From positions 1 through 32,263 of IMG/VR virus record IMGVR_UViG_3300009433_000024: a stretch of 32,263 nt of DNA. The stretch is one strand, 5' to 3'. Positions 7,177 through 27,849 of the stretch are shown in pieces. The position numbers were made by a program, and so were the translations under genes. The notes under the pieces are model-generated. The model saw only the letters and a list, made by a program, of their open reading frames with translations, did not search any database and was not told the DNA's origin. Source of the DNA: a virus. Position 1 is the first letter of the stretch. Every line of letters begins with the position of its first letter.

Positions 7177-8778
7177 ATGGCTTTAGGTATAAAATTAGGA
7201 ATTATAGCATCAACATTTCCTCAAACACCTTCATTCACCAACACATATTCTCTATCGATGGATGGTGTGGATGATACAGTTAACTTTCAAAATGAGTGGT
7301 TTGCTCCAAGTACACCATCTCAAACAACAGGTAACACAGTAGGAACTATTTCTTTTTGGGTAAAATTACCAACAAATATATCTTCAGGTGGTTTAATGGG
7401 TATGGTTAGTATTAATGTAGGTTCAAATAGTAAGCCATTAATTTGGCTTTTGTTTAATAGAAGTGCAAGTTCAACTGGGAGGTATATTAGAGCATATGTT
7501 AGTGGTGCAAATTCTACACAAACTGGGGTACTACAAAACCAACAGTTTTTTATTTATGATGATAGTAGTACTACTTACCCAAATTCAGGAATTACTTTTA
7601 GCGCTGATACTTGGTATCATATAGCAGTAGTACACGACAAAGACGCGACAAATAGATACAAAGCATATATAAACGGAAATGAATTTTTAATTCCTAACAC
7701 AACAGGAACAGGTAGTAATGGAGAGAGAACAATTGGCGAAATGCCTTATAGCTTACCTTACAATCCAACTGCTTTTGGAATAACCCCTAATGTTGATTTA
7801 GGATTTTCAAGAACAAGTTCAAGTGGGGGGTTACAATATTTTGAAGGCAATCTTGATGAGGTGGCTTTTTGGAATAGTGCTTTAACCTCTGAAAACGTAA
7901 CTTCAATTTACAATTCAGGAGTACCCAACGATTTAACAAGTTTAAATCCTGTTGCTTGGTACAGAAATGGCGATAACGGAACTTGGAAAAGCCCTCAATG
8001 GCTAATCCCTAATAATAGTAATGTTGCTAATTCAAGATTTTCAAATTATAGTTTTGAGTATGATGGAGTTGACGATTATGTACAAGCACCTTTAGATGGC
8101 ACATCAACAGGTGGAATATTAGCTGCTTCAGATAGTGATGTAGAATTAACTATTTCTTTTTGGTTTAAATTAAATGCTGGTGCTAATCCCGCAGGAGTAT
8201 TTCAATGGGCAAATTCGTTAAGTGATGGTACACCTTTTCTTCTGCTTCAACAGAACTTAATTCCAACAAATGTTAAATTTGTTATAGATGGGGGTTTTCG
8301 CACACCAATAAATGTAAATTTAAGTCAATGGTATAATATGACATTAACAAGAACGGCATCAGATAATACTTGGAGAGCTTATTTAGATGGTGTTGAGGTT
8401 ATTAGTTATGATGATGGTGGTACAATTACTAATAGAGCATCAGCAACAGATATTTATTTAGGCAATGGGTATGGTGGTTATGCTCCCTGTAATATTGATG
8501 AGTTTGCAGTTTGGAATAGTGTACAAGATGTAGCTACTATTTACAATTCAGGAGTACCCACAGATATTTCTTCACTTTCCCCTGTTGGATATTGGAGAAG
8601 TGAAAATTCAACATTCTTAACTAATTGGACTGTTACAGATAATGGTAGTGGTGGTAATGATGGAACTTCTGCAAATATGACCATAGAGGATAGAGTAGGA
8701 GATGCACCAAATAGTTCAAATAATGCAGTTAGTTTTAATATGGATGAAGTTGACAGAGAAACAGATGTACCAACTTAA
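7177..8778 (+). CDS. LamG-domain protein, two modules with two C-terminal repeats
   Basis: The 533-residue protein holds two tandem LamG jelly-rolls, at about residues 20-270 and 285-480. Each opens with a 'Y.S...DGVDD' strand ('SLSMDGVDDTVNF', 'SFEYDGVDDYVQAP') and closes with 'N(L/I)DE(V/F)A.WNS' and 'IYNSGVP'. They are joined by a 'WYRNGDNGTWKSPQWLIPNN' linker that recurs in the next gene (55 of 60 bases identical). The tail carries two 12-residue units, NMTIEDRVGDAP and NMDEVDRETDVP, separated by a short Asn/Ser linker. There is no signal peptide or catalytic motif. It is most likely a virion-borne adhesion protein binding host surface glycans. Confidence 0.82.
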   Translation: MALGIKLGIIASTFPQTPSFTNTYSLSMDGVDDTVNFQNEWFAPSTPSQTTGNTVGTISFWVKLPTNISSGGLMGMVSINVGSNSKPLIWLLFNRSASSTGRYIRAYVSGANSTQTGVLQNQQFFIYDDSSTTYPNSGITFSADTWYHIAVVHDKDATNRYKAYINGNEFLIPNTTGTGSNGERTIGEMPYSLPYNPTAFGITPNVDLGFSRTSSSGGLQYFEGNLDEVAFWNSALTSENVTSIYNSGVPNDLTSLNPVAWYRNGDNGTWKSPQWLIPNNSNVANSRFSNYSFEYDGVDDYVQAPLDGTSTGGILAASDSDVELTISFWFKLNAGANPAGVFQWANSLSDGTPFLLLQQNLIPTNVKFVIDGGFRTPINVNLSQWYNMTLTRTASDNTWRAYLDGVEVISYDDGGTITNRASATDIYLGNGYGGYAPCNIDEFAVWNSVQDVATIYNSGVPTDISSLSPVGYWRSENSTFLTNWTVTDNGSGGNDGTSANMTIEDRVGDAPNSSNNAVSFNMDEVDRETDVPT

Positions 8779-9429
8779 AAAAGGAAAATTATGAGATTCG
8801 GACCATTACCACCTTCATTTAACAACACCTATTCGTTAGCATTTGACGGGGTGGATGATTTTGTTAATTCAGGTGCTTCAACTTTAAGTGGTGAAACTGC
8901 TTTAAGTATTTCTGCTTGGGTTTATCCTACTTCTTATGGAGATGCTACTGCACCAAGTTTTGTTAGTACAGATGCAGCATCACCAAGAGCATTTTATTTA
9001 GGTTTATTTAATGGAACAAATTTTAGATTTAGTTTAAGTACAAACGGAACAGCTTTAACTTCTTTAGACACTGCTGCAGGTACAGTAGATTTAAATGTAT
9101 GGCAACACATTTTAGTTACTTGGGATCAAGTTAATTTAAAACTTTATAAAAATGGGGTTTTATTAAAAACAGTAGCTACAACATTCGCAAGTAATGGAAC
9201 TTTCACAACTACAAATGATTTATTAATAGGTGCAAGAAGGTCAAGTGCAGGATTTTTTGAAGGTAATATAGATGAGGTTGCAGTTTTTAATTCAGTAGTT
9301 GATATTGCTGATGTTTGGGATGGAACAGGTGAAGCAACAGATTTAAGTTCTATTAGTGGTTTAACTAATTGGTACAGAAATGGCGACAACGGAACTTTTA
9401 AAAGTCCCCAATGGCTAATCCCTAATAAT
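7957..9429 (+). repeat. Pair of 60-bp repeats encoding the LamG inter-module linker (7957-8016 and 9370-9429)
   Basis: Bases 7957-8016 and 9370-9429 differ at 5 of 60 positions and encode the linker WYRNGDNGT..SPQWLIPNN in two neighbouring LamG genes. Near-identical DNA at module borders is a natural site for homologous exchange of LamG modules. Confidence 0.85.
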
Positions 9430-10748
9430 GAGAATAAAACCAAATTTTCAAATTATAGTTTTGAATATGATGGGGTGGATGATTTTGTAAATATTTCAAA
9501 TCCTATTCCTTTAGGATTAACATCTATTTCATTTTGGATGAAATCTACTCATTCTGGAAATGACAGTATAACAAGTGGTTTAGGTAATTTAAGTTTTATA
9601 GGAACAACTCCTTTAGTACGTCTATCGGGTTTAAATTATAGATACTTTGCAGACCAAGCTTCTAAATTTGATGGAGAATGGCATCATTGGTTTTTATTAA
9701 TTGCTGGTTCTGGACAAAGTGATATAACTAACTCAAGATTATTTGTAGATGGTGTAGAAATATCAAGTGGAATAACTGTAAATTCTGTACCACCTTCTTC
9801 TTGGACAAATTCAGAAATAGGTAGGGGGTTTTATGGAAGTATAAATGCATCAATAGATGAGTTTGCAATATGGCAAAGTGATGAAACTGCAAACATTAGT
9901 ACTATCTACAACTCAGGAGTACCCACAGATATTTCTTCACTTTCACCTGTTGGATATTGGAGAAGTGAACAAAGTAATTTTACAGATAATTGGTTAGTTG
10001 ATAATTCAGCATTAAGTAACTATTCTACAAGGTCATTTGCTTTTGATGGGATAGACGATTACATACCTGTAAATGGTTCTATTATATCTTCGGCAGGGGA
10101 TATGACTATTTCAAGTTGGGCAAATTTTTCAAGTTTAGCAGGGGTTCAAGGGATTTTTGATAGTGCTAATTTTTATAGGTCAGGTTTTAATGGTGGTTTT
10201 TCTTTTAGAACTATTGGCACAAATTTAGATGTTGCTTTTTCAAATGGAACTGTTTTTAGCTCTTATAGTGCAAGTACAGGGTTATCAACTTCTGGGGGTT
10301 GGTATCATTTAGCATTCACTTTTAATAATACAACAAAATTAGGAACATTTTATTTAAATGGTGTTGCATTTGATACATACACTTTTACAGGTTTTGACAA
10401 TGCAGATTTAGTTAATGGTGGTGTAATTGGTAGAGCAGTAAGAATTAACTCATATTGTTTTACAGGTTTTTTAGACGAAATATCAATTTTTAATAGCATA
10501 GTAGATGTAGCTACTTTATACAATTCAGGAGAACCTGCAAGAATTGAGGGTGCAGTTGCACATTGGAGAATGGGCGAAGATGCAACATTTAATACTAATT
10601 GGAATGTACCTGACCAAGTTGGAAGTGCAACAGGAACAAGTGCAAATATGACAATAGCAGATTTAGAGGGTGATGCACCTAACTATACAGGTGGTGGATT
10701 ATCAAATAATATGACCATAGAGGATAGAGTAGGAGATGCACCAAATAG
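8674..10748 (+). repeat. Pair of identical 41-bp repeats in the C-terminal tails (8674-8714 and 10708-10748)
   Basis: The two 41-bp copies are identical and encode the NMTIEDRVGDAP tail unit plus the following Asn in the genes ending at 8778 and 10812. Exact identity at the 3' ends of both genes points to recent duplication or gene conversion. Confidence 0.88.
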
Positions 10749-10812
10749 CACAAGCAATGCTTTAAGCTACAATATGGATGAAGCAGATAGAGAAACAGAT
10801 GTACCTTCATAA
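8791..10812 (+). CDS. LamG-domain protein, three modules with three C-terminal repeats
   Basis: The 673-residue protein contains three LamG modules, at about residues 10-195, 220-395 and 405-585. Their opening strands are 'SLAFDGVDDFVNSG', 'SFEYDGVDDFVNIS' and 'SFAFDGIDDYIPVN', and their closing segments are 'NIDEVAVFNS', 'SIDEFAIWQS' and 'FLDEISIFNS'. The first two modules are joined by the WYRNGDNGT..SPQWLIPNN linker. The tail carries three 12-residue units (NMTIADLEGDAP, NMTIEDRVGDAP, NMDEADRETDVP). The start MRFGPLPPSFNN is shared with the 18-codon stub at 6598. This is the largest member of the paralogous array and ends the transcription unit before the box at 10823. It is likely a multivalent host-surface binding protein of the virion. 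Confidence 0.82.
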   Translation: MRFGPLPPSFNNTYSLAFDGVDDFVNSGASTLSGETALSISAWVYPTSYGDATAPSFVSTDAASPRAFYLGLFNGTNFRFSLSTNGTALTSLDTAAGTVDLNVWQHILVTWDQVNLKLYKNGVLLKTVATTFASNGTFTTTNDLLIGARRSSAGFFEGNIDEVAVFNSVVDIADVWDGTGEATDLSSISGLTNWYRNGDNGTFKSPQWLIPNNENKTKFSNYSFEYDGVDDFVNISNPIPLGLTSISFWMKSTHSGNDSITSGLGNLSFIGTTPLVRLSGLNYRYFADQASKFDGEWHHWFLLIAGSGQSDITNSRLFVDGVEISSGITVNSVPPSSWTNSEIGRGFYGSINASIDEFAIWQSDETANISTIYNSGVPTDISSLSPVGYWRSEQSNFTDNWLVDNSALSNYSTRSFAFDGIDDYIPVNGSIISSAGDMTISSWANFSSLAGVQGIFDSANFYRSGFNGGFSFRTIGTNLDVAFSNGTVFSSYSASTGLSTSGGWYHLAFTFNNTTKLGTFYLNGVAFDTYTFTGFDNADLVNGGVIGRAVRINSYCFTGFLDEISIFNSIVDVATLYNSGEPARIEGAVAHWRMGEDATFNTNWNVPDQVGSATGTSANMTIADLEGDAPNYTGGGLSNNMTIEDRVGDAPNSTSNALSYNMDEADRETDVPS

Positions 10813-12932: not shown

Positions 12933-13421
12933 ATGGCAGTATTAGATCCCAATGAAATATTTTTCACAGCGTTTGAACCTAAACAAGCTAATAGATTCAT
13001 CCTTTATATGGATGGGATTCCAAGCTTTATGATTAAGGGTATAAGTGCAATAACATTACAACAAAACCCTGTTGTTTTAAATCACATTAACGTTGAAAGA
13101 AAAGTTAAAGGTAAATCAACATGGCAAAATGTTACAATGACATTATTTGATCCTATTACACCATCAGGTGCTCAAGCAGTAATGGAATGGGTAAGATTAC
13201 ATCATGAATCAGTTACAGGTAGAGATGGTTATTCTGATTTTTATAAAAAAGATTTAACAGTTAATGTTTTAGGTCCTGTAGGAGATATAGTTTCAGAGTG
13301 GGTTTTAAAAGGATCATTTGTTGTTAATACTAATTTTGGTGAATACAGTTGGGATACAGTTGATTCAGCAATTCAATTATCAGTTGAATTATCTATTGAT
13401 TATGCGGTATTAAATTTCTAA
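12933..13421 (+). CDS. 19: Tail tube protein (T4 gp19-like)
   Basis: The 162-residue product has the length of T4 gp19 (163) and its typical sequence order: 'FEPKQANRFILYMDGIPSFM' then 'IKG', 'HINVERKVKGKSTWQNVTMT', 'LFDPITPSGAQAVMEWVR', a 'SGRDGY'-like 'TGRDGYSDFYKKDLTVNVLG' stretch, and 'EWVLKGSFVVNTNFGEYSWD'. It stacks as hexameric rings to build the inner tube through which DNA passes. Its own late-type box stands upstream and a strong terminator downstream, the same arrangement as the capsid gene. Both encode high-copy virion proteins. Confidence 0.93.
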   Translation: MAVLDPNEIFFTAFEPKQANRFILYMDGIPSFMIKGISAITLQQNPVVLNHINVERKVKGKSTWQNVTMTLFDPITPSGAQAVMEWVRLHHESVTGRDGYSDFYKKDLTVNVLGPVGDIVSEWVLKGSFVVNTNFGEYSWDTVDSAIQLSVELSIDYAVLNF

Positions 13422-13474: not shown

Positions 13475-13481
13475 ATATTGG

Positions 13482-13491
13482 TATTTATAAT
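13482..13491 (+). promoter_or_regulatory. Late-type promoter box TATTTATAAT after the tube terminator
   Basis: The box follows the terminator directly and lies 27 nt before the ATG at 13519. It gives the tail assembly chaperone gene its own expression, separate from the tube gene. Confidence 0.7.
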
Positions 13492-13518
13492 AAATTAAGT
13501 TATACCAAATAAAAGATT

Positions 13519-14262
13519 ATGAGTGAATTTAAATTCCCAACTGAAGAAGTTGAATTACCATCAAAAGGATTAATTTATCCTAAAGACAATCCCTTATCAA
13601 GTGGAAAAATAGAAATGAAATACATGACCGCTAAGGAAGAAGATATTTTAACAAATGAAAATCTAATTAAAAATGGCACTGTTTTAGATAAATTACTTCA
13701 AGCTGTAATAGTTAGTGATATTAATTTTAACGATTTAATTATAGGAGATAAAAATGCTATTTTAATTGCAGCACGTATCTTAGGGTATGGGAAAGACTAC
13801 ACATTTGAATATAATAATGAGCAAGTAACAATTGATCTCTCAGACTTACAATTAAAATATTTAGAAGAAGGTGTAATTGAAAAGGGTGTTAACTTATTTG
13901 CTTTTAAACTTCCACACTCAGGAATTGATATAACATATAAAATATTAACTCAAGGAGATGATAATAAAATTAAACAAGAATTAAAAGGAATTAAAAAAAT
14001 TCATAAAACATCTTCCCCAGAATTGTCAACAAGACTTAAACATATTATTACTTCAGTAGATGGAAATGATGATCAAAAATCAATTAGGGAGTTTGTTGAC
14101 AAATACATGTTGGCTCGAGATTCTAGAGCTTTAAGAGAACATATTAAATTAACCCAACCAGACATTAATTTAACTTTTAGTTATACTAATGAAAGAGGTG
14201 ATGAGGAGGACGCCAACATGCCTATGACTGCCGGGTTTTTTTGGCCTGACGTCACAGTATAG
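13519..14262 (+). CDS. 26: Tail assembly / baseplate hub assembly protein (T4 gp26-like), short product
   Basis: The 247-residue protein matches the T4 gp26 baseplate family (T4_baseplate, PF12322, named from memory): 'VELPSKGLIYPKDNPLSSGK' at the start, 'MKYMTAKEEDILTNENLIKN', 'LLQAVIVSDINFNDLIIGDK', 'AARILGYGKDYTFEY', and a 'MPMTAGFFWPD' ending. It lies between tube and tape measure, the place held in many tailed phages by the lambda G-type chaperone that coats the tape measure before tube polymerisation. Near its 3' end is a run of seven T residues (14236-14242) inside the FFW codons. From there the +1 (equivalently -2) frame is open for 98 more codons, described separately. The zero-frame stop is TAG at 14260-14262. 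Confidence 0.82.
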   Translation: MSEFKFPTEEVELPSKGLIYPKDNPLSSGKIEMKYMTAKEEDILTNENLIKNGTVLDKLLQAVIVSDINFNDLIIGDKNAILIAARILGYGKDYTFEYNNEQVTIDLSDLQLKYLEEGVIEKGVNLFAFKLPHSGIDITYKILTQGDDNKIKQELKGIKKIHKTSSPELSTRLKHIITSVDGNDDQKSIREFVDKYMLARDSRALREHIKLTQPDINLTFSYTNERGDEEDANMPMTAGFFWPDVTV

Positions 14263-14539
14263 AGTTACTTTATTTCAACAAATTTATGAGATTATATTTT
14301 ATGGTGGAGGAGGATATGATTTCCATACCGTATACAATTTTCCTATTTGGTTAAGAAGATTAACTCACACTCAAATAGCTAGTAGTAAACAGGCAGAAGC
14401 CGATGCTTATAAAAAATCTACATCTTCCTCTGATTCAGTTGATATAGGAAGTAAAAATATTCCTGAGCATATAAAACAAGCTATAAAAAGTACTCCAGTT
14501 AAAGCACCTTCATATGTAACAAAGTCTACTAAAAAATAG
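14228..14539 (+). CDS. C-terminal extension read by +1/-2 ribosomal frameshift (G-T-like)
   Basis: This frame opens at 14228, just after a stop at 14225, and stays open to TAG at 14537-14539. It has no ATG and no methionine codon, no GTG or TTG start, and no promoter box, so independent translation is unlikely. If ribosomes slip on the T run at 14236-14242 (+1, or -2 with re-pairing of Phe-tRNA on TTT), the gp26-like protein gains about 98 residues starting GLTSQYRVTLFQQIYEIIFY. The segment 'FYGGGGYDFHTVYNFPIWLR' looks folded and conserved in style, and a Lys/Ser-rich tail ending STKK follows. The place (between tube and tape measure) and architecture match lambda gpG-gpGT. Phage Mu is known to use a -2 shift here. 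An alternative is a one-base homopolymer error, with a true fusion or a broken gene. Confidence 0.72.
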   Translation: MPGFFGLTSQYRVTLFQQIYEIIFYGGGGYDFHTVYNFPIWLRRLTHTQIASSKQAEADAYKKSTSSSDSVDIGSKNIPEHIKQAIKSTPVKAPSYVTKSTKK

Positions 14540-14548
14540 TTTAATTAA

Positions 14549-14556
14549 TATTTATA
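14549..14556 (+). promoter_or_regulatory. Late-type promoter box TATTTATA before the tape measure gene
   Basis: The eight-base core is intact and is followed by CCCAAATATT, the most divergent extension of the set. It lies 16 nt before the tape measure ATG at 14573. Confidence 0.62.
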
Positions 14557-14572
14557 CCCAAATATTAGACTA

Positions 14573-17023
14573 ATGGCTAACGGTAATACTAAAAAAAATA
14601 TTAATGATACTAAGCAAGCAATGGATGATTTATTGTTTGCTACTCGAGATTTTACTGATGAAGTCCAAAAATCAGCCAAAGAAGTTTTTGGTATAGGTAC
14701 TCAAGCTAGAGCAGCTACAAAAGCTTTTAGAGATATAGCTAATATTACAAGAGAAATAGATACAGACATAAATGATATTTTAGATGGAACTAAATCTATA
14801 GAAGATTTAACAAAATCTCAATTAAAATTAGACCAAAAAAAGAAAAATCTTACTACTGAATACAGACAAGCCTTAGGTATAATCTTAAAAGACAACCAAA
14901 ATATTGAGGCAGTACTAAAGGGTCAAATGACATCTAGGGAAGCAGCAATTAAAACTGGAAAGGCCTACTCAACACAGGAACTCATATTACTTGACTTATA
15001 TGAAGAACAATTTATTGCTTTACAAGATGTAGATAAAGAAATGGCTCAAATTGTCAAAAAGGCAGAAGATATTGAATCCAATATGGGGAATATGGGTACT
15101 AGTTTAAAAGGATTAGGAGGAATCTTAAAGAAAGTAGGACTTGGTGATTTAGGTGATAAAATGGGTATAGATGATGCTGTTGCTAGTGGGAGAAAATTAT
15201 CCGCCAGTTTAGGGGGGACAGGAAAAAAAGGACAAGTTGCAGCCCATATGATGGGAAAAATAGGAGCTAATTTATCTAAAGCTTTTGGCCCTGCTGCATT
15301 AATAGCAATGGCTATAGAACAGATAGTTAAAGCTTTTAAACAATTAGACCAACTTTCAGGTGAAGTAGCTAAAAGTATGGGAGTATCAGCAGCTGAAGGA
15401 GAATCTTTAGTTAAAAGTATGAATCAAGCTGCTAATTCTACAGGAGAATTAGATGTTTCTACTAAAGATTTAGTAAAAGCTCAAATGGAAATGAATCAAA
15501 TGTTAGGTACTAGTGTTAAATTCTCAGCTGAAATGGCGGAAGAATTTTCATTAATTCAACAAAGAACTGGTTTATCTACTGAAGCAATGTCTTTCTTTGC
15601 AAAAGAATCATTAAGAGCAGGAACTTCAATGAAAGACCAACTTCAAATCGTATCTAAAGTTACTGAGGAAATGGTTGGCCAAACAGGTATAAATTTAAGT
15701 TTAAAAGAAATTCAAGAAGGAGTAGCTTCAGCTTCTAAAGCTACTTTTTTAGCTACTAAAGGAGGAGTTGAAGAATTAACTAAAGCAGTTTTTAAAGCTA
15801 GACAATTCGGTATAACAATGAGTCAGTTAGATAGTACTGCCTCTTCTTTACTTGATTTTGAATCTTCTATAGCTGCAGAATTAGAAGCAGAATTATTATT
15901 AGGGAAAGATTTAAACTTAGAAAAAGCAAGACAAGCCGCTTTAGATAATAATATGGCTACACTATCTGAAGAAATTGCCAAAAATGTAGGTTCAGCAGCT
16001 GAATTTCAAGAAATGAATAGAATTCAACAAGAAGCAATAGCTAAATCAGTTGGAATGCAAAGAGAAGATTTAGCCGGTATGCTCTTAGAACAAGAAACAC
16101 TAGCTAAAATAAAAGATTCAGATTATAAAAGCATGTCTAAAGCCCAAGAAGAAATTAATAGGATGATGGATGAAGGATATACAATTGAACAAGCTAGGCA
16201 AGAGTTAGTAGCCAATCATGTTGATGATACTTTAACTGCTCAATTACTTTCTCAAACTAGAGCAGAAAAAATGGGTAAATTTCAAGAAAAAATGGGAGAT
16301 TTATTTATGCTATTAGCTGAAGCTTTTACTCCTATGATAGATGAATTAATGACAATGATGCCTGGTTTATTAAAAGGTTTACAACCTATTTTTAAAATAT
16401 TAGGGTTTGTACTAACAATATCGATGAAAATTCAAATGGTATTTGGTGGACTTACAGTTGCTATCGAAATTATCTCAGGCTTATTAGAAGGTTTAGGGAA
16501 TTTTTTCACACCCATATTAGAATTACTTCAAAAAATGAAAAAGGCTTTTGATGGAGATGATGGTTTATTAGGTGCTGTAAACGTATTTAAGGATAATATT
16601 GTAGGTACATGGATGAAAATGGGTGTGGCATTTGTAGATTTTGTACTTACTCCTGTAAAAGTTATGTTAGGGTATTTAGCTAGAATAGGTGACTTTGTTG
16701 GAAGTTTATTCAAATCAGATTTTGGTTTTTCAGATATGGTATCATCTATTCCAACCTTATCATCATTTACTCAAGATGCTCCTGTAGAAATGGCAACAGG
16801 TGGTATAGTAACAGGACCAACAAATGCTATAATAGGTGAAGGTGGAGAACCAGAAGCAGTAGTTCCATTAAGTAAAGCTAATTCAGTAGGATTTGGTGGA
16901 AACTCTGAAACAAATTCATTATTAAAAGAATTAATAAGTGCGGTTAAAGCAGGAGGTACTGTTACTTTAGATGGACAAAAAGTAGGGCAAGCATTATCAA
17001 TTTCAAATTACTCAACTCAATAA
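14573..17023 (+). CDS. Tail tape measure protein
   Basis: The 816-residue protein has the usual tape measure layout. There is an N-terminal helical, charged region (about 1-200), a hydrophobic segment near 232-255 ('LSKAFGPAALIAMAIEQIVK'), and a long Ala/Glu/Lys-rich helical middle with 'QARQELVANHVDDTLTAQLL'. A second hydrophobic block lies near 585-650 ('MMPGLLKGLQPIFKILGFVL', 'FGGLTVAIEIISGLLEGLGN'). The C-terminus has the signature 'GGIVTGPTNAIIGEGGEPEA' followed by 'VVPLSKANS', then a small 'GGTVTLDGQKVGQAL' beta tail seen in many tape measures. It sets tail length and is delivered to the cell envelope at infection. It follows the gp26-like/extension pair directly, as in most tail modules. 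It is longer than T4 gp29 (590 residues), which would predict a longer tail if scaling holds. Confidence 0.9.
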   Translation: MANGNTKKNINDTKQAMDDLLFATRDFTDEVQKSAKEVFGIGTQARAATKAFRDIANITREIDTDINDILDGTKSIEDLTKSQLKLDQKKKNLTTEYRQALGIILKDNQNIEAVLKGQMTSREAAIKTGKAYSTQELILLDLYEEQFIALQDVDKEMAQIVKKAEDIESNMGNMGTSLKGLGGILKKVGLGDLGDKMGIDDAVASGRKLSASLGGTGKKGQVAAHMMGKIGANLSKAFGPAALIAMAIEQIVKAFKQLDQLSGEVAKSMGVSAAEGESLVKSMNQAANSTGELDVSTKDLVKAQMEMNQMLGTSVKFSAEMAEEFSLIQQRTGLSTEAMSFFAKESLRAGTSMKDQLQIVSKVTEEMVGQTGINLSLKEIQEGVASASKATFLATKGGVEELTKAVFKARQFGITMSQLDSTASSLLDFESSIAAELEAELLLGKDLNLEKARQAALDNNMATLSEEIAKNVGSAAEFQEMNRIQQEAIAKSVGMQREDLAGMLLEQETLAKIKDSDYKSMSKAQEEINRMMDEGYTIEQARQELVANHVDDTLTAQLLSQTRAEKMGKFQEKMGDLFMLLAEAFTPMIDELMTMMPGLLKGLQPIFKILGFVLTISMKIQMVFGGLTVAIEIISGLLEGLGNFFTPILELLQKMKKAFDGDDGLLGAVNVFKDNIVGTWMKMGVAFVDFVLTPVKVMLGYLARIGDFVGSLFKSDFGFSDMVSSIPTLSSFTQDAPVEMATGGIVTGPTNAIIGEGGEPEAVVPLSKANSVGFGGNSETNSLLKELISAVKAGGTVTLDGQKVGQALSISNYSTQ

Positions 17024-23119: not shown

Positions 23120-24388
23120 ATGTTTTGGTTAATAGAAGCAAAAAGACAATTAAACGAGTTTAATAAAAAGGGTTATAAGGAAGCTTATATAGAAGTTATA
23201 CCATATTCTTACAAAACTCACCCTGCAATTACTAATGTTAGTTTAGTTTATATTAGACCATTTGAAGCAACTAAAGGATATATGTTAACTATAAACCATA
23301 GTGAAGCTATGGCGTTAAACAACGAGTATATTGAAGAATTAATTAGTAAATTTGATAAGTTATACGTTTGGGATAAGAAGGAATTTATTCATTTTTACTG
23401 GAGAAGTAATGAAGTAATTGATTTATCTTTAGCAGTTCCTAATTATGAAAAAGAAACAACTAAAACCCATAGGTTATTTAACAATTACAAAAGATACAAA
23501 GATAAATTAGATATTAATAGAATTATTCCTATAGTTAAACATTATGAAGCTTGTGAAAAAAATTACAACAATTTAAAACAGTACAAAAATGAACCCGTCA
23601 ACAAATTTTACAACCAATCAGTACCATTGGTATTCAAATTTATCGAAAAAAATGGTATACGAGTGGATTCCCAAATCTTCGAAGACTACTTCGACCATAA
23701 TAGCAAGGATAGAGTCTACACACAATATAATCTCAGAACAACAACAACAAGACCCTCCAACAGATTTGGAGGAGTAAATTTTGCAGCATTAAATAAAGAA
23801 AATGGATGTAGGAAAGCTTTTATACCAGATAATGATAGATTTGTTGAAATTGATATTTCTGCTTATCATCCTAGTCTTGCCGCTCATCTTGTTGATTATA
23901 AATTTAATACTGATGACATTCATAAGTCCTTTGCTGAAATGTATGGAGTGGATTATAAAAAATCTAAAGAGCTTACTTTCAAACAGCTTTATGGCGGTGT
24001 TTTTAAGCAGTACCGCCATTTGGAGTATTTTCAAAAAATACAAAAATATGTAGATGATTTATGGGAAAAATTTAATACTGATGGTTATGTTGAATGTCTT
24101 ATTTCTAAACATAGATTTGAAAAAGATAAATTAGATAACATGAATCCACAAAAACTATTTAATTATCTCCTTCAAAATTTGGAGACGTCACTTAATGTTC
24201 TTATGTTAAAACATATAATAAAAAGAATAATATTTAAAAAAACTAAATTAGTATTATACACATATGATGCTTTTTTATTTGATTTAGCAGATGATGAAGA
24301 ATATTTAATAAAAGATATAATAAAAATATTTAATAGATATAATTGCAAAGTAAAATTAAAATATGGAACAAACTACGATTTTGAATAA
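23120..24388 (+). CDS. Compact family-A DNA polymerase with degenerate exonuclease part and no visible thumb
   Basis: The 422-residue protein has the family-A palm/fingers motifs. They are 'TTTTRPSNRFGGVNF' with R211 and N220 (like R668/N675 of E. coli Pol I), 'EIDISAYHPSLAAHL' with catalytic D245 (motif A), 'DDIH', 'KSKELTFKQLYGG' with K283, F287 and Y291 (motif B), and 'VLYTYDAFLFDL' with D383 (motif C). The Pol I steric-gate Glu is replaced by H250, and the motif C His-Asp-Glu is Tyr-Asp-Ala. Residues 1-165 resemble a 3'-5' exonuclease fold, but the first metal motif reads YIEV rather than DxE, so proofreading is doubtful. From 'FIEKNGIRVD' to motif R211 there are only about 30 residues against about 120 in Pol I, so the thumb seems missing. 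T4 uses a family-B polymerase, so this is a replacement. It overlaps the next ORF by 26 nt. Confidence 0.8.
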   Translation: MFWLIEAKRQLNEFNKKGYKEAYIEVIPYSYKTHPAITNVSLVYIRPFEATKGYMLTINHSEAMALNNEYIEELISKFDKLYVWDKKEFIHFYWRSNEVIDLSLAVPNYEKETTKTHRLFNNYKRYKDKLDINRIIPIVKHYEACEKNYNNLKQYKNEPVNKFYNQSVPLVFKFIEKNGIRVDSQIFEDYFDHNSKDRVYTQYNLRTTTTRPSNRFGGVNFAALNKENGCRKAFIPDNDRFVEIDISAYHPSLAAHLVDYKFNTDDIHKSFAEMYGVDYKKSKELTFKQLYGGVFKQYRHLEYFQKIQKYVDDLWEKFNTDGYVECLISKHRFEKDKLDNMNPQKLFNYLLQNLETSLNVLMLKHIIKRIIFKKTKLVLYTYDAFLFDLADDEEYLIKDIIKIFNRYNCKVKLKYGTNYDFE

Positions 24389-24833
24389 CATAGATAGTAT
24401 TTATAGGGTGAACTACGATTTTGAAAATCCCCAAAACATTAAAGACTTGAATAACAAATTATTTTGCACTTTTACTACATTAGAGGGGATGGAAGAGCTT
24501 ATTAAAAATCTTACTTCCCAATACAATATTATGTATAACAAAATCTTTGCTTTATATATTAAAAGCAATGATGAATATGTTATAACATATAATGTTGACC
24601 AAGGTAATGTTACTTCAATTCCAGAAAACACCATTTTAGTCCATAGAAAAAAAGAAACAAATACGTTATACACCATAAATTCACTGAATGAACTTATTAA
24701 AAATCTAAACGGTGGGGTTGTCGATACAAAATTCCCTATAGATTGGCAACACTACAAAAATTGTATTTTACTGACTCAACATGGGGAGTTAAAGCAGTTA
24801 AATACCAAGATTCACAAAATAATTGAGCTTTAG
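24363..24833 (+). CDS. Unknown protein overlapping the polymerase gene
   Basis: The 156-residue protein is not recognised. It is predicted soluble, with a helical N-terminal half ('LEGMEELIKNLTSQYNIMYN') and a beta-rich second half ('EYVITYNVDQGNVTSIPENT', 'ILVHRKKETNTLYTINS') ending 'NTKIHKIIEL'. Its start lies 26 nt inside the polymerase gene, and residues 17-21 repeat the last five residues of the polymerase (NYDFE) through a 15-bp direct repeat. The tight coupling to the polymerase and the following SSB promoter suggest a replication role, for example a polymerase accessory or translational regulator. This is inference only. A TATTTATA stretch at 24398-24405 inside the gene matches the late box but is not placed before a start codon. 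Confidence 0.6.
   Translation: MEQTTILNNIDSIYRVNYDFENPQNIKDLNNKLFCTFTTLEGMEELIKNLTSQYNIMYNKIFALYIKSNDEYVITYNVDQGNVTSIPENTILVHRKKETNTLYTINSLNELIKNLNGGVVDTKFPIDWQHYKNCILLTQHGELKQLNTKIHKIIEL
24371..24425 (+). repeat. 15-bp direct repeat at the polymerase/unknown-gene overlap
   Basis: Bases 24371-24385 and 24411-24425 are identical (AACTACGATTTTGAA), with a 40-nt period. The first copy is the end of the polymerase gene and the second is inside the overlapping gene. Both are read in frames giving NYDFE. Confidence 0.85.
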
Positions 24834-26817: not shown

Positions 26818-27849
26818 ATGAGAAAAAAAGAACTACTAGCAATCTTGAATGATACTCAAGATAATGATACAGGTATGCCTAAAGGGGATCGAATATTATT
26901 AATTGATGGGTTAAATTTGTTTTTTAGAAACTTTGCCATGTTACAAATGGTTAACCCAAAAGGAGTACATATTGGTGGATTAGGTGGTTTTTTTAGATCT
27001 TTAGGAGCATTAATTAGACAAATCCAACCTCATCAAGTATATGTAGTATTTGATGGGGCGGGTTCTTCAATGAATAGAAAAAATCTTGTCCCTGAATATA
27101 AATCAGGTAGAGAAACTCAACGAATTACTAATTGGGAGGTATTTGATAATTTGGATGAAGAGCATGATTCTAAAATAGACCAAATAGTAAGAATTATACA
27201 ATATTTAAAAACCCTACCTGTTAAAACAGTATCAATAGATAAAGTAGAAGCAGATGATATCATCGCGTATTTAAGTCATAAAGCGTTAAAACAACAAGGT
27301 GATAAGGCTTTTATAATATCTAGTGATAAGGATTTTTTACAATTGGTAAACGACAGAGTGGTTGTTTATAGACCTATAGAAAAGAAATTTTATACAAATG
27401 AATCTTTTAAGGAGAAATATAATATGCCTTCTGAAAATTTTATTATTTATAAAACACTTATGGGTGATAGTTCTGATAAAATAAAAGGAATAAAAGGTTT
27501 AGGTGAAAAGAAATTATTTAAACTATTCCCAGAATTGAGTAAATGGGAAGTTTCATGGAAAGATATTTTAGATATTTGTGAAAGAAAATACAAAGACCAT
27601 ATTATATATGCTAGGATAATTCAAGAAGTAAATGAATTAGAAAAGAATTACAAAATAATGGATTTAAGTAATCCAATGATGAGTAAAGATGATAAAGAAT
27701 ATTTAGATGGGTTTGTAAACTCCAAAGAATTAACTTATAATCCGAAGTTGTTTACAGACTTATATAATGAAGATGAATTAGGGGGTATGATTAGAAATTT
27801 AGATTTCTGGTTAAGAGAAAATTTTTTAAAATTAGTTTCAAAAAAATAA
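26818..27849 (+). CDS. 5'-3' exonuclease / flap endonuclease (T4 RNase H-like)
   Basis: The 343-residue protein is a FEN-type nuclease. Metal-binding motifs appear in order: 'ILLIDGLNLFFRNF' with D30, 'VYVVFDGAGSS' with D79, a basic arch 'EYKSGRETQR', 'KVEADDIIAYL' with E144, D146 and D147, 'ISSDKDFLQLV' with D170 and D172, and a helix-three-turn-helix 'GDSSDKIKGIKGLGEKK' with D217 and D220. It removes RNA primers and flaps from lagging-strand fragments. In bacteria this activity is part of Pol I, so it complements the compact polymerase encoded upstream, which lacks such a domain. T4 Rnh is 305 residues. The first 22 residues precede the fold; the gene starts 4 nt after uvsX, and ATG 26818 is the only start close to that stop. 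Confidence 0.9.
   Translation: MRKKELLAILNDTQDNDTGMPKGDRILLIDGLNLFFRNFAMLQMVNPKGVHIGGLGGFFRSLGALIRQIQPHQVYVVFDGAGSSMNRKNLVPEYKSGRETQRITNWEVFDNLDEEHDSKIDQIVRIIQYLKTLPVKTVSIDKVEADDIIAYLSHKALKQQGDKAFIISSDKDFLQLVNDRVVVYRPIEKKFYTNESFKEKYNMPSENFIIYKTLMGDSSDKIKGIKGLGEKKLFKLFPELSKWEVSWKDILDICERKYKDHIIYARIIQEVNELEKNYKIMDLSNPMMSKDDKEYLDGFVNSKELTYNPKLFTDLYNEDELGGMIRNLDFWLRENFLKLVSKK

Follow-up and report, generated by a model that had tools for sequence, protein, structure and literature searches.

A probable +1 frameshift giving two lengths of a gp26-like tail assembly chaperone in a large group of T4-like phages

Introduction

In a viral sequence of 32,263 nt (IMG/VR record IMGVR_UViG_3300009433_000024, positions 1 to 32,263; hereafter, the window) a gene similar to gene 26 of phage T4 ends inside a second open frame that has no start codon of its own. 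Why is this frame kept open, and how would ribosomes enter it? The original prediction was that the phage makes a gp26-like protein and a minor, extended form of the G/GT type by a programmed shift of +1 or −2, the two being left joint, and that T4 gp26 is thereby linked to the G/GT chaperone family. Tail assembly chaperones are already known to come in two lengths through shifts of −1, −2 or +1 (PMC5009743). For T4-like phages, Vladimirov, Gautam and Davidson (2022, Virology; as cited in PMC10885494 and PMC12846349) identified such chaperones; PMC12846349 also describes T-rich −1 signals in T4-like TAC-N genes.

Results

The overlap and its conservation

The gp26-like ORF encodes 247 aa (C-terminus ...TAGFFWPDVTV*) and ends in GGG TTT TTT TGG CCT GAC GTC ACA GTA TAG; as predicted, its stop is at 14262 and the +1 frame is open from 14228 to 14539, with a translation starting (LPG)FFGLTSQYRVTLFQQIYEIIFYGGGGYDFHTVYNFPIWLRR... 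Other elements of the prediction were borne out by the sequence as well: the extension frame holds no ATG, GTG or TTG and no methionine, seven T residues (14236–14242) lie within the Phe-Phe-Trp codons TTT TTT TGG, and a −1 shift would end at once at the TGA of 14247–14249. This short gene sits between those for the tail tube and the tape measure (Table 1), an order common to Flavobacterium phage immuto, SP-15 and LIS04. No evident SD precedes the starts of gp26 and the tape measure gene within 13480–14600, while the shift region between them has a conserved SD-like element.

Table 1. Features of the gp26-like locus (window coordinates)
Feature	Position	Strand	Basis or remark
Tail tube protein (gp19-like), adjoins upstream	12933..13421	+	phrog_4542 E 1.6e-16, PF06841 E 1.7e-4
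gp26-like short form (TAC-N), zero frame	13519..14262	+	stop TAG 14260-14262; phrog_150 'baseplate hub' E 5.4e-13, residues 4-242
GAGGAGG, SD-like purine element	14203..14209	+	29 nt before P-site codon
Codon before site, GGG	14233..14235	+	third base C or G in 136/148 clusters
Putative shift site TTT TTT TGG, next base C	14236..14244	+	open-frame intersection, 148 clusters; re-pairing counts
Extension (TAC-C), +1 frame	14243..14539	+	98 codons and stop; without own start codon
TGA closing the −1 frame right past the site	14247..14249	+	read from sequence; −1 stop here in 126/148 clusters
Tape-measure-like protein, adjoins downstream	14573..17023	+	matches the tail length tape measure families phrog_34082 and phrog_167 at E about 6e-6

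The probability of 92 open codons at the local G+C of 29% is about 4e-4, a figure not decisive alone because long open frames also follow other genes of the window, where they are the downstream genes. Decisive support for the overlap came instead from comparative data. With the window gp26, the gp26 proteins of immuto and Microcystis phage Mel-JY01 and that of one uncultured jumbo phage as scan queries (80 related loci kept per scan), we gathered at least 259 loci, 257 of them with a recognisable site, which formed 156 clusters at 92% nucleotide identity. Among the matches listed, a +1 extension reaching >150 nt beyond the zero-frame stop was observed in 148 of the 156 clusters; six of the remaining eight are cut by contig ends and two (L318 and L322) have no +1 extension. 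In these two the +1 frame is lost and the extension is a separate ATG-started gene directly past the gp26 stop; in L318 the slip site is ruined too (TTC TTG TAT). Homologues with such a separate downstream gene, which had been named in advance as evidence against the prediction, do occur, then, in these two clusters of the 156; both are nested beside the immuto clade in the short-part tree, and the split arrangement is apparently a derived loss.

A sequencing error or a broken single gene was considered and rejected, as the identical arrangement recurs across many samples, in 148 clusters, and in isolates too. A host look-up in genome contigs gave a match in one uncultured MAG only.

The extension as a protein

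The conservation of the extension that the prediction called for was found on alignment of the homologues. The dN/dS ratio of the extension is 0.58, compared with 0.84 and 1.33 for the same DNA in the other frames used as controls; the extension evolves as a protein under purifying selection. Its core consensus is GLT....YR..LF.QIH.IVFHG.GGY...TVYNMPIWLR.F. Direct Pfam and PHROG scans of the extension gave no match, and its link to gp51 came only from profile-profile comparison, as had been suggested: hhalign aligned the extension profile with the gp51/cyanophage C-terminal profile with a score of 35.8 (probability 83%), while 31 reversed or shuffled controls scored at most 8.9. By this measure the extension and the C-terminal domain of T4 gp51 are homologous. 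In public annotation, parts of the extension are listed as separate hypothetical proteins in immuto (L082:6839-6949), RM378 (L085:5698-5874), SP-15 (L084:5809-5928) and Mel-JY01 (L083:6737-6973).

The short form and the extension were folded as two separate models. The AlphaFold model of the short form (pLDDT 87.9) is close to those of SP-15 gp26 and other gp26-like proteins; among the solved-structure matches listed, the highest probability was that of HK97 gp13 (2ob9; probability 0.28, E 1.8, TM 0.48 by target length), a weak match that is not significant. The extension is predicted to be a three-helix domain, confident for the first 60 residues.

The shift site

Intersection of the open frames of the 148 clusters confines the shift to positions −8 to +9 around TGG. 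The putative P-site codon is TTT in 117 clusters, CTT in 28 and CTA in three; the A-site codon is TGG in 145 and TAC in three. All 148 clusters have C after the A-site codon and CCT as the Pro codon; YTT T is present in 145, and CTA T in three. A P-site Leu is never encoded by TTA, though TTA is the commonest Leu codon in these genes, nor a P-site Phe by TTC, though TTC makes up 22% of Phe codons; at the first Phe codon TTT outnumbers TTC by 141 to 4. The base before TTT is C in 86 clusters, G in 50, A in 9 and T in 3, the expected numbers being 20, 8, 46 and 74. We think that T is avoided there because it would give rise to U_UUU_UUU, a −1 heptamer, and the −1 frame closes immediately. The notion that the shift is tied to the zero-frame stop was discarded; the stop codon and the last sense codon vary, and the stop lies 9, 12, 18 or 33 nt past the A codon.

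Upstream, an SD-like pentamer occurs within −60 to 0 in 133 of the 148 clusters, against a mean of 84 (maximum 95) after synonymous resampling; its spacing to the P codon has a mode of 27–30 nt, and GC3 is raised over codons −17 to −3. We know of no stimulator with such spacing; that of the SD-like stimulator of dnaX is about 10 nt. A search for a conserved hairpin or pseudoknot found no common pairs in a fixed register (best mean probability 0.21), and the z-scores of RNA folding were weak, −0.6 around the site and −0.9 at +30 to +100.

Outside the clustered set, more distant relatives likewise have the extension in +1 at the corresponding Phe-Phe codons, with TTT TTT TGG in RM378, TTT TTT CAC in SP-15 and TTC TTT CGT in Streptococcus phage GXN1. 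The GXN1 site (L088:4700-4730) reads UUC UUU CGU C, and its UUU_CGU_C is presumably the +1 site type known from influenza PA-X.

Mechanism and alternatives

The whole explanation, a tail assembly chaperone of two lengths made through a +1 shift at TTT TTT T|GG C, is in our judgement very likely. Most ribosomes would stop at 14262 and release the gp26 short form. On the others, while the A site holds the Trp codon, which is read slowly, the P-site tRNA-Phe (tRNA-Leu in relatives with CTT) would slip from UUU 14239–14241 to UUU 14240–14242, and this minority of ribosomes, such being the presumed efficiency, would resume at GGC 14243 in the +1 frame. The long form would have 339 residues, ...TAGFF-GLTSQYR...KSTKK. 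If the two forms act like gpG and gpGT, the tape measure protein should be coated by the short part, and the extension should bring in the tail tube protein. The predicted pair of a gp26-like protein and a minor, extended G/GT-type form thus gains support from conservation, the slippery site, the missing start and the gp51 match.

The direction of the shift, which had been left as +1 or −2, can now be weighed. A −2 shift as in phage Mu, with the P-site tRNA moving back two bases and FF-F-GLT made rather than FF-GLT, would give a product in the identical frame; re-pairing would be possible at 144 of the 148 sites, the strong preference for TTT over TTC at the first Phe codon is explained by −2 no worse than by +1, and besides Mu as a known −2 case there are the arteriviruses, in which −1 runaways likewise stop at once (PMC5009743). 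The site has no G run. In four clusters (nine loci), the TTC TTT TGG clade, −2 re-pairing fails, however, with a mismatch at the middle position. CTT, moreover, is a classic +1 codon, and distant relatives have UUU_C (SP-15) and UUU_CGU_C (GXN1), the latter of the +1 type named above. For a +1 slip, each of the 148 clusters offers mismatch-free re-pairing at one of the two codons; those with CTA need the slip one codon earlier, at UUU_C. Since every site re-pairs in +1, whereas a simple −2 is excluded in the TTC TTT TGG clade, the evidence from the sites favours +1, and we consider −2 unlikely.

Two further explanations would dispense with a ribosomal shift. Transcriptional slippage at the T run would yield some mRNAs with six or nine U, and the seven T that the prediction pointed to are indeed present in the window and in most relatives. 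The run is not essential, though: it is interrupted in 31 of the 148 clusters, which have TTTCTT or TTTCTA, and in 4 with TTCTTT (TTCTTTT with the next base), where no more than four T stand in a row, and this excludes slippage as a general mechanism. T is also avoided before the run (3 observed, 74 expected), and we regard slippage as extremely improbable. Synthesis of the extension as a separate protein, from its own start or by re-initiation, has a model in the ATG-started genes of L318 and L322 and in the cyanophage-type loci, all 74 of which have an ATG 5 nt beyond the zero-frame stop. Yet the extension of the window offers neither ATG, GTG or TTG nor any Met codon, 37 of the 148 clusters likewise lack such a start all the way from the upstream stop to codon 20 of the extension, and the constraint on the site would stay unaccounted for under separate initiation, which we hold to be very unlikely.

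Relation to T4 gp26 and gp51 and to the −1 users

Both T4 gp26 and T4 gp51 match PF12322 and phrog_150. T4 gp26 ends where the short form ends; gp51 is longer by ∼48 residues, which are covered only by the longer profiles of phrog_150 and phrog_634. As judged from these matches, gp26 and gp51 of T4 are paralogues. A PF12322 scan of the window protein gave no match; its homologues in SP-15 and RM378 do match, so the window protein is linked to the family via intermediates. With this homology and that of the extension, gp26 would correspond to lambda gpG as the short chaperone, and the shifted product to gpGT as the long one. T4 has the same family, with gp26 as the short form and the extra C-terminal domain of gp51 as the extension, but as two genes on opposite strands, whereas the window has one gene and a putative shift into the +1 frame.

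In P-SSM2, S-PM2, HTVC008M, phiM12 and phiW-14, gp26 is followed by the extension in −1, with U_UUU_UUY at the overlap; the same holds for 74 of 74 cyanophage-type loci. The overlap in these phages is in the same gene, at the same Phe-Phe codons and with the same kind of extension, but the direction is −1 and the purine element (GAG GG in the cyanophage type) is about 9–10 nt upstream of the site, the usual spacing for −1 sites. All 74 distinct loci of this type (P-SSM2, L140; S-PM2, L141; L328–L407) have both the U_UUU_UUC heptamer and the ATG 5 nt past the gp26 stop; as both are kept, gp51 of the cyanophage type could be produced in two ways, fused and on its own. In two jumbo phages (LR756511, L090; Atu_ph07, L091) the extension lies in frame −1, at T TTT TTC, and Atu_ph07 has an ATGA start/stop overlap as well. 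In Campylobacter phage NCTC12673 (L145), matches to phrog_150 appear in three pieces across about 1.1 kb; the gp26/gp51 pair may be duplicated or split there.

An unrooted tree built from the short part groups gp26 and gp51 of the T4 type in a single clade (100/99) that neighbours the −1 users; the +1 users are on the other side together with the two −1 jumbo phages. How often the direction switched is unsure, given the lack of a root and the long branches of RM378, Atu_ph07 and LR756511.

Lambda G/GT, Mu 41/42 and HK97 gp13 share with the window the place of the gene, the two lengths and an extension in another frame; lambda shifts by −1 and Mu by −2, while +1 is proposed here. No sequence match to these or to other frameshifted chaperones was found in our analysis.

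Discussion

The abstract of the 2022 study is said to report a frameshift in several T4-like groups, with genes 26 and 51 separate in T4. The predicted link of gp26 to the G/GT chaperones is supported by the gp51 C-terminal match and is not new, having been published already (Vladimirov et al. 2022). For the +1 form in T4-like phages we found no description in the literature searched, in which that study was covered through papers citing it; the +1 direction seems to be new, and it is conserved across a very large set of uncultured T4-like phages.

The site resembles that of bacterial prfB (RF2), CUU_UGA_C, in having YUU_U, a slow codon and then C. The RF2 site differs in having a stop codon in the A site and an SD 3 nt upstream, instead of a sense UGG (or TAC) and an SD-like element mostly 27–30 nt away. 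Among +1 sites ranked in RF2 studies, CUU_U was by far the best (PMC5009743), and F. johnsoniae carries the RF2 site (PMC8710568). We give about even chances to the view that the direction of frameshifting has switched at the same Phe-Phe codons, being −1 in cyanophages and their kin and +1 in this clade, where an RF2-like slip would operate with a sense Trp codon and, as a stimulator of a new kind, the conserved distal SD-like element.

One could expect the rule of two-length chaperones to extend to this branch of T4-like phages, very large and for the most part uncultured, which includes phages of Flavobacterium, Microcystis and Rhodothermus. With −1 sites, +1 sites and split genes, a single orthologous gene offers a natural series in which the direction of frameshifting may be related to sequence. 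Flavobacterium, whose ribosomes hide the anti-SD, offers a setting in which to test the candidate +1 site with its sense codon and distal SD-like element.

Elsewhere in the window, two adjoining genes (7177–10812) have three LamG/ConA-like domains each and similar C-terminal repeats (NMTIEDRVGDAPN...NMDE.DRETDVP). A short piece of family A DNA polymerase (23120–24833; PF00476 E 1e-6, below cutoff) overlaps an unmatched ORF of 156 aa, and a separate 5′-3′ exonuclease is encoded at 26818–27849.
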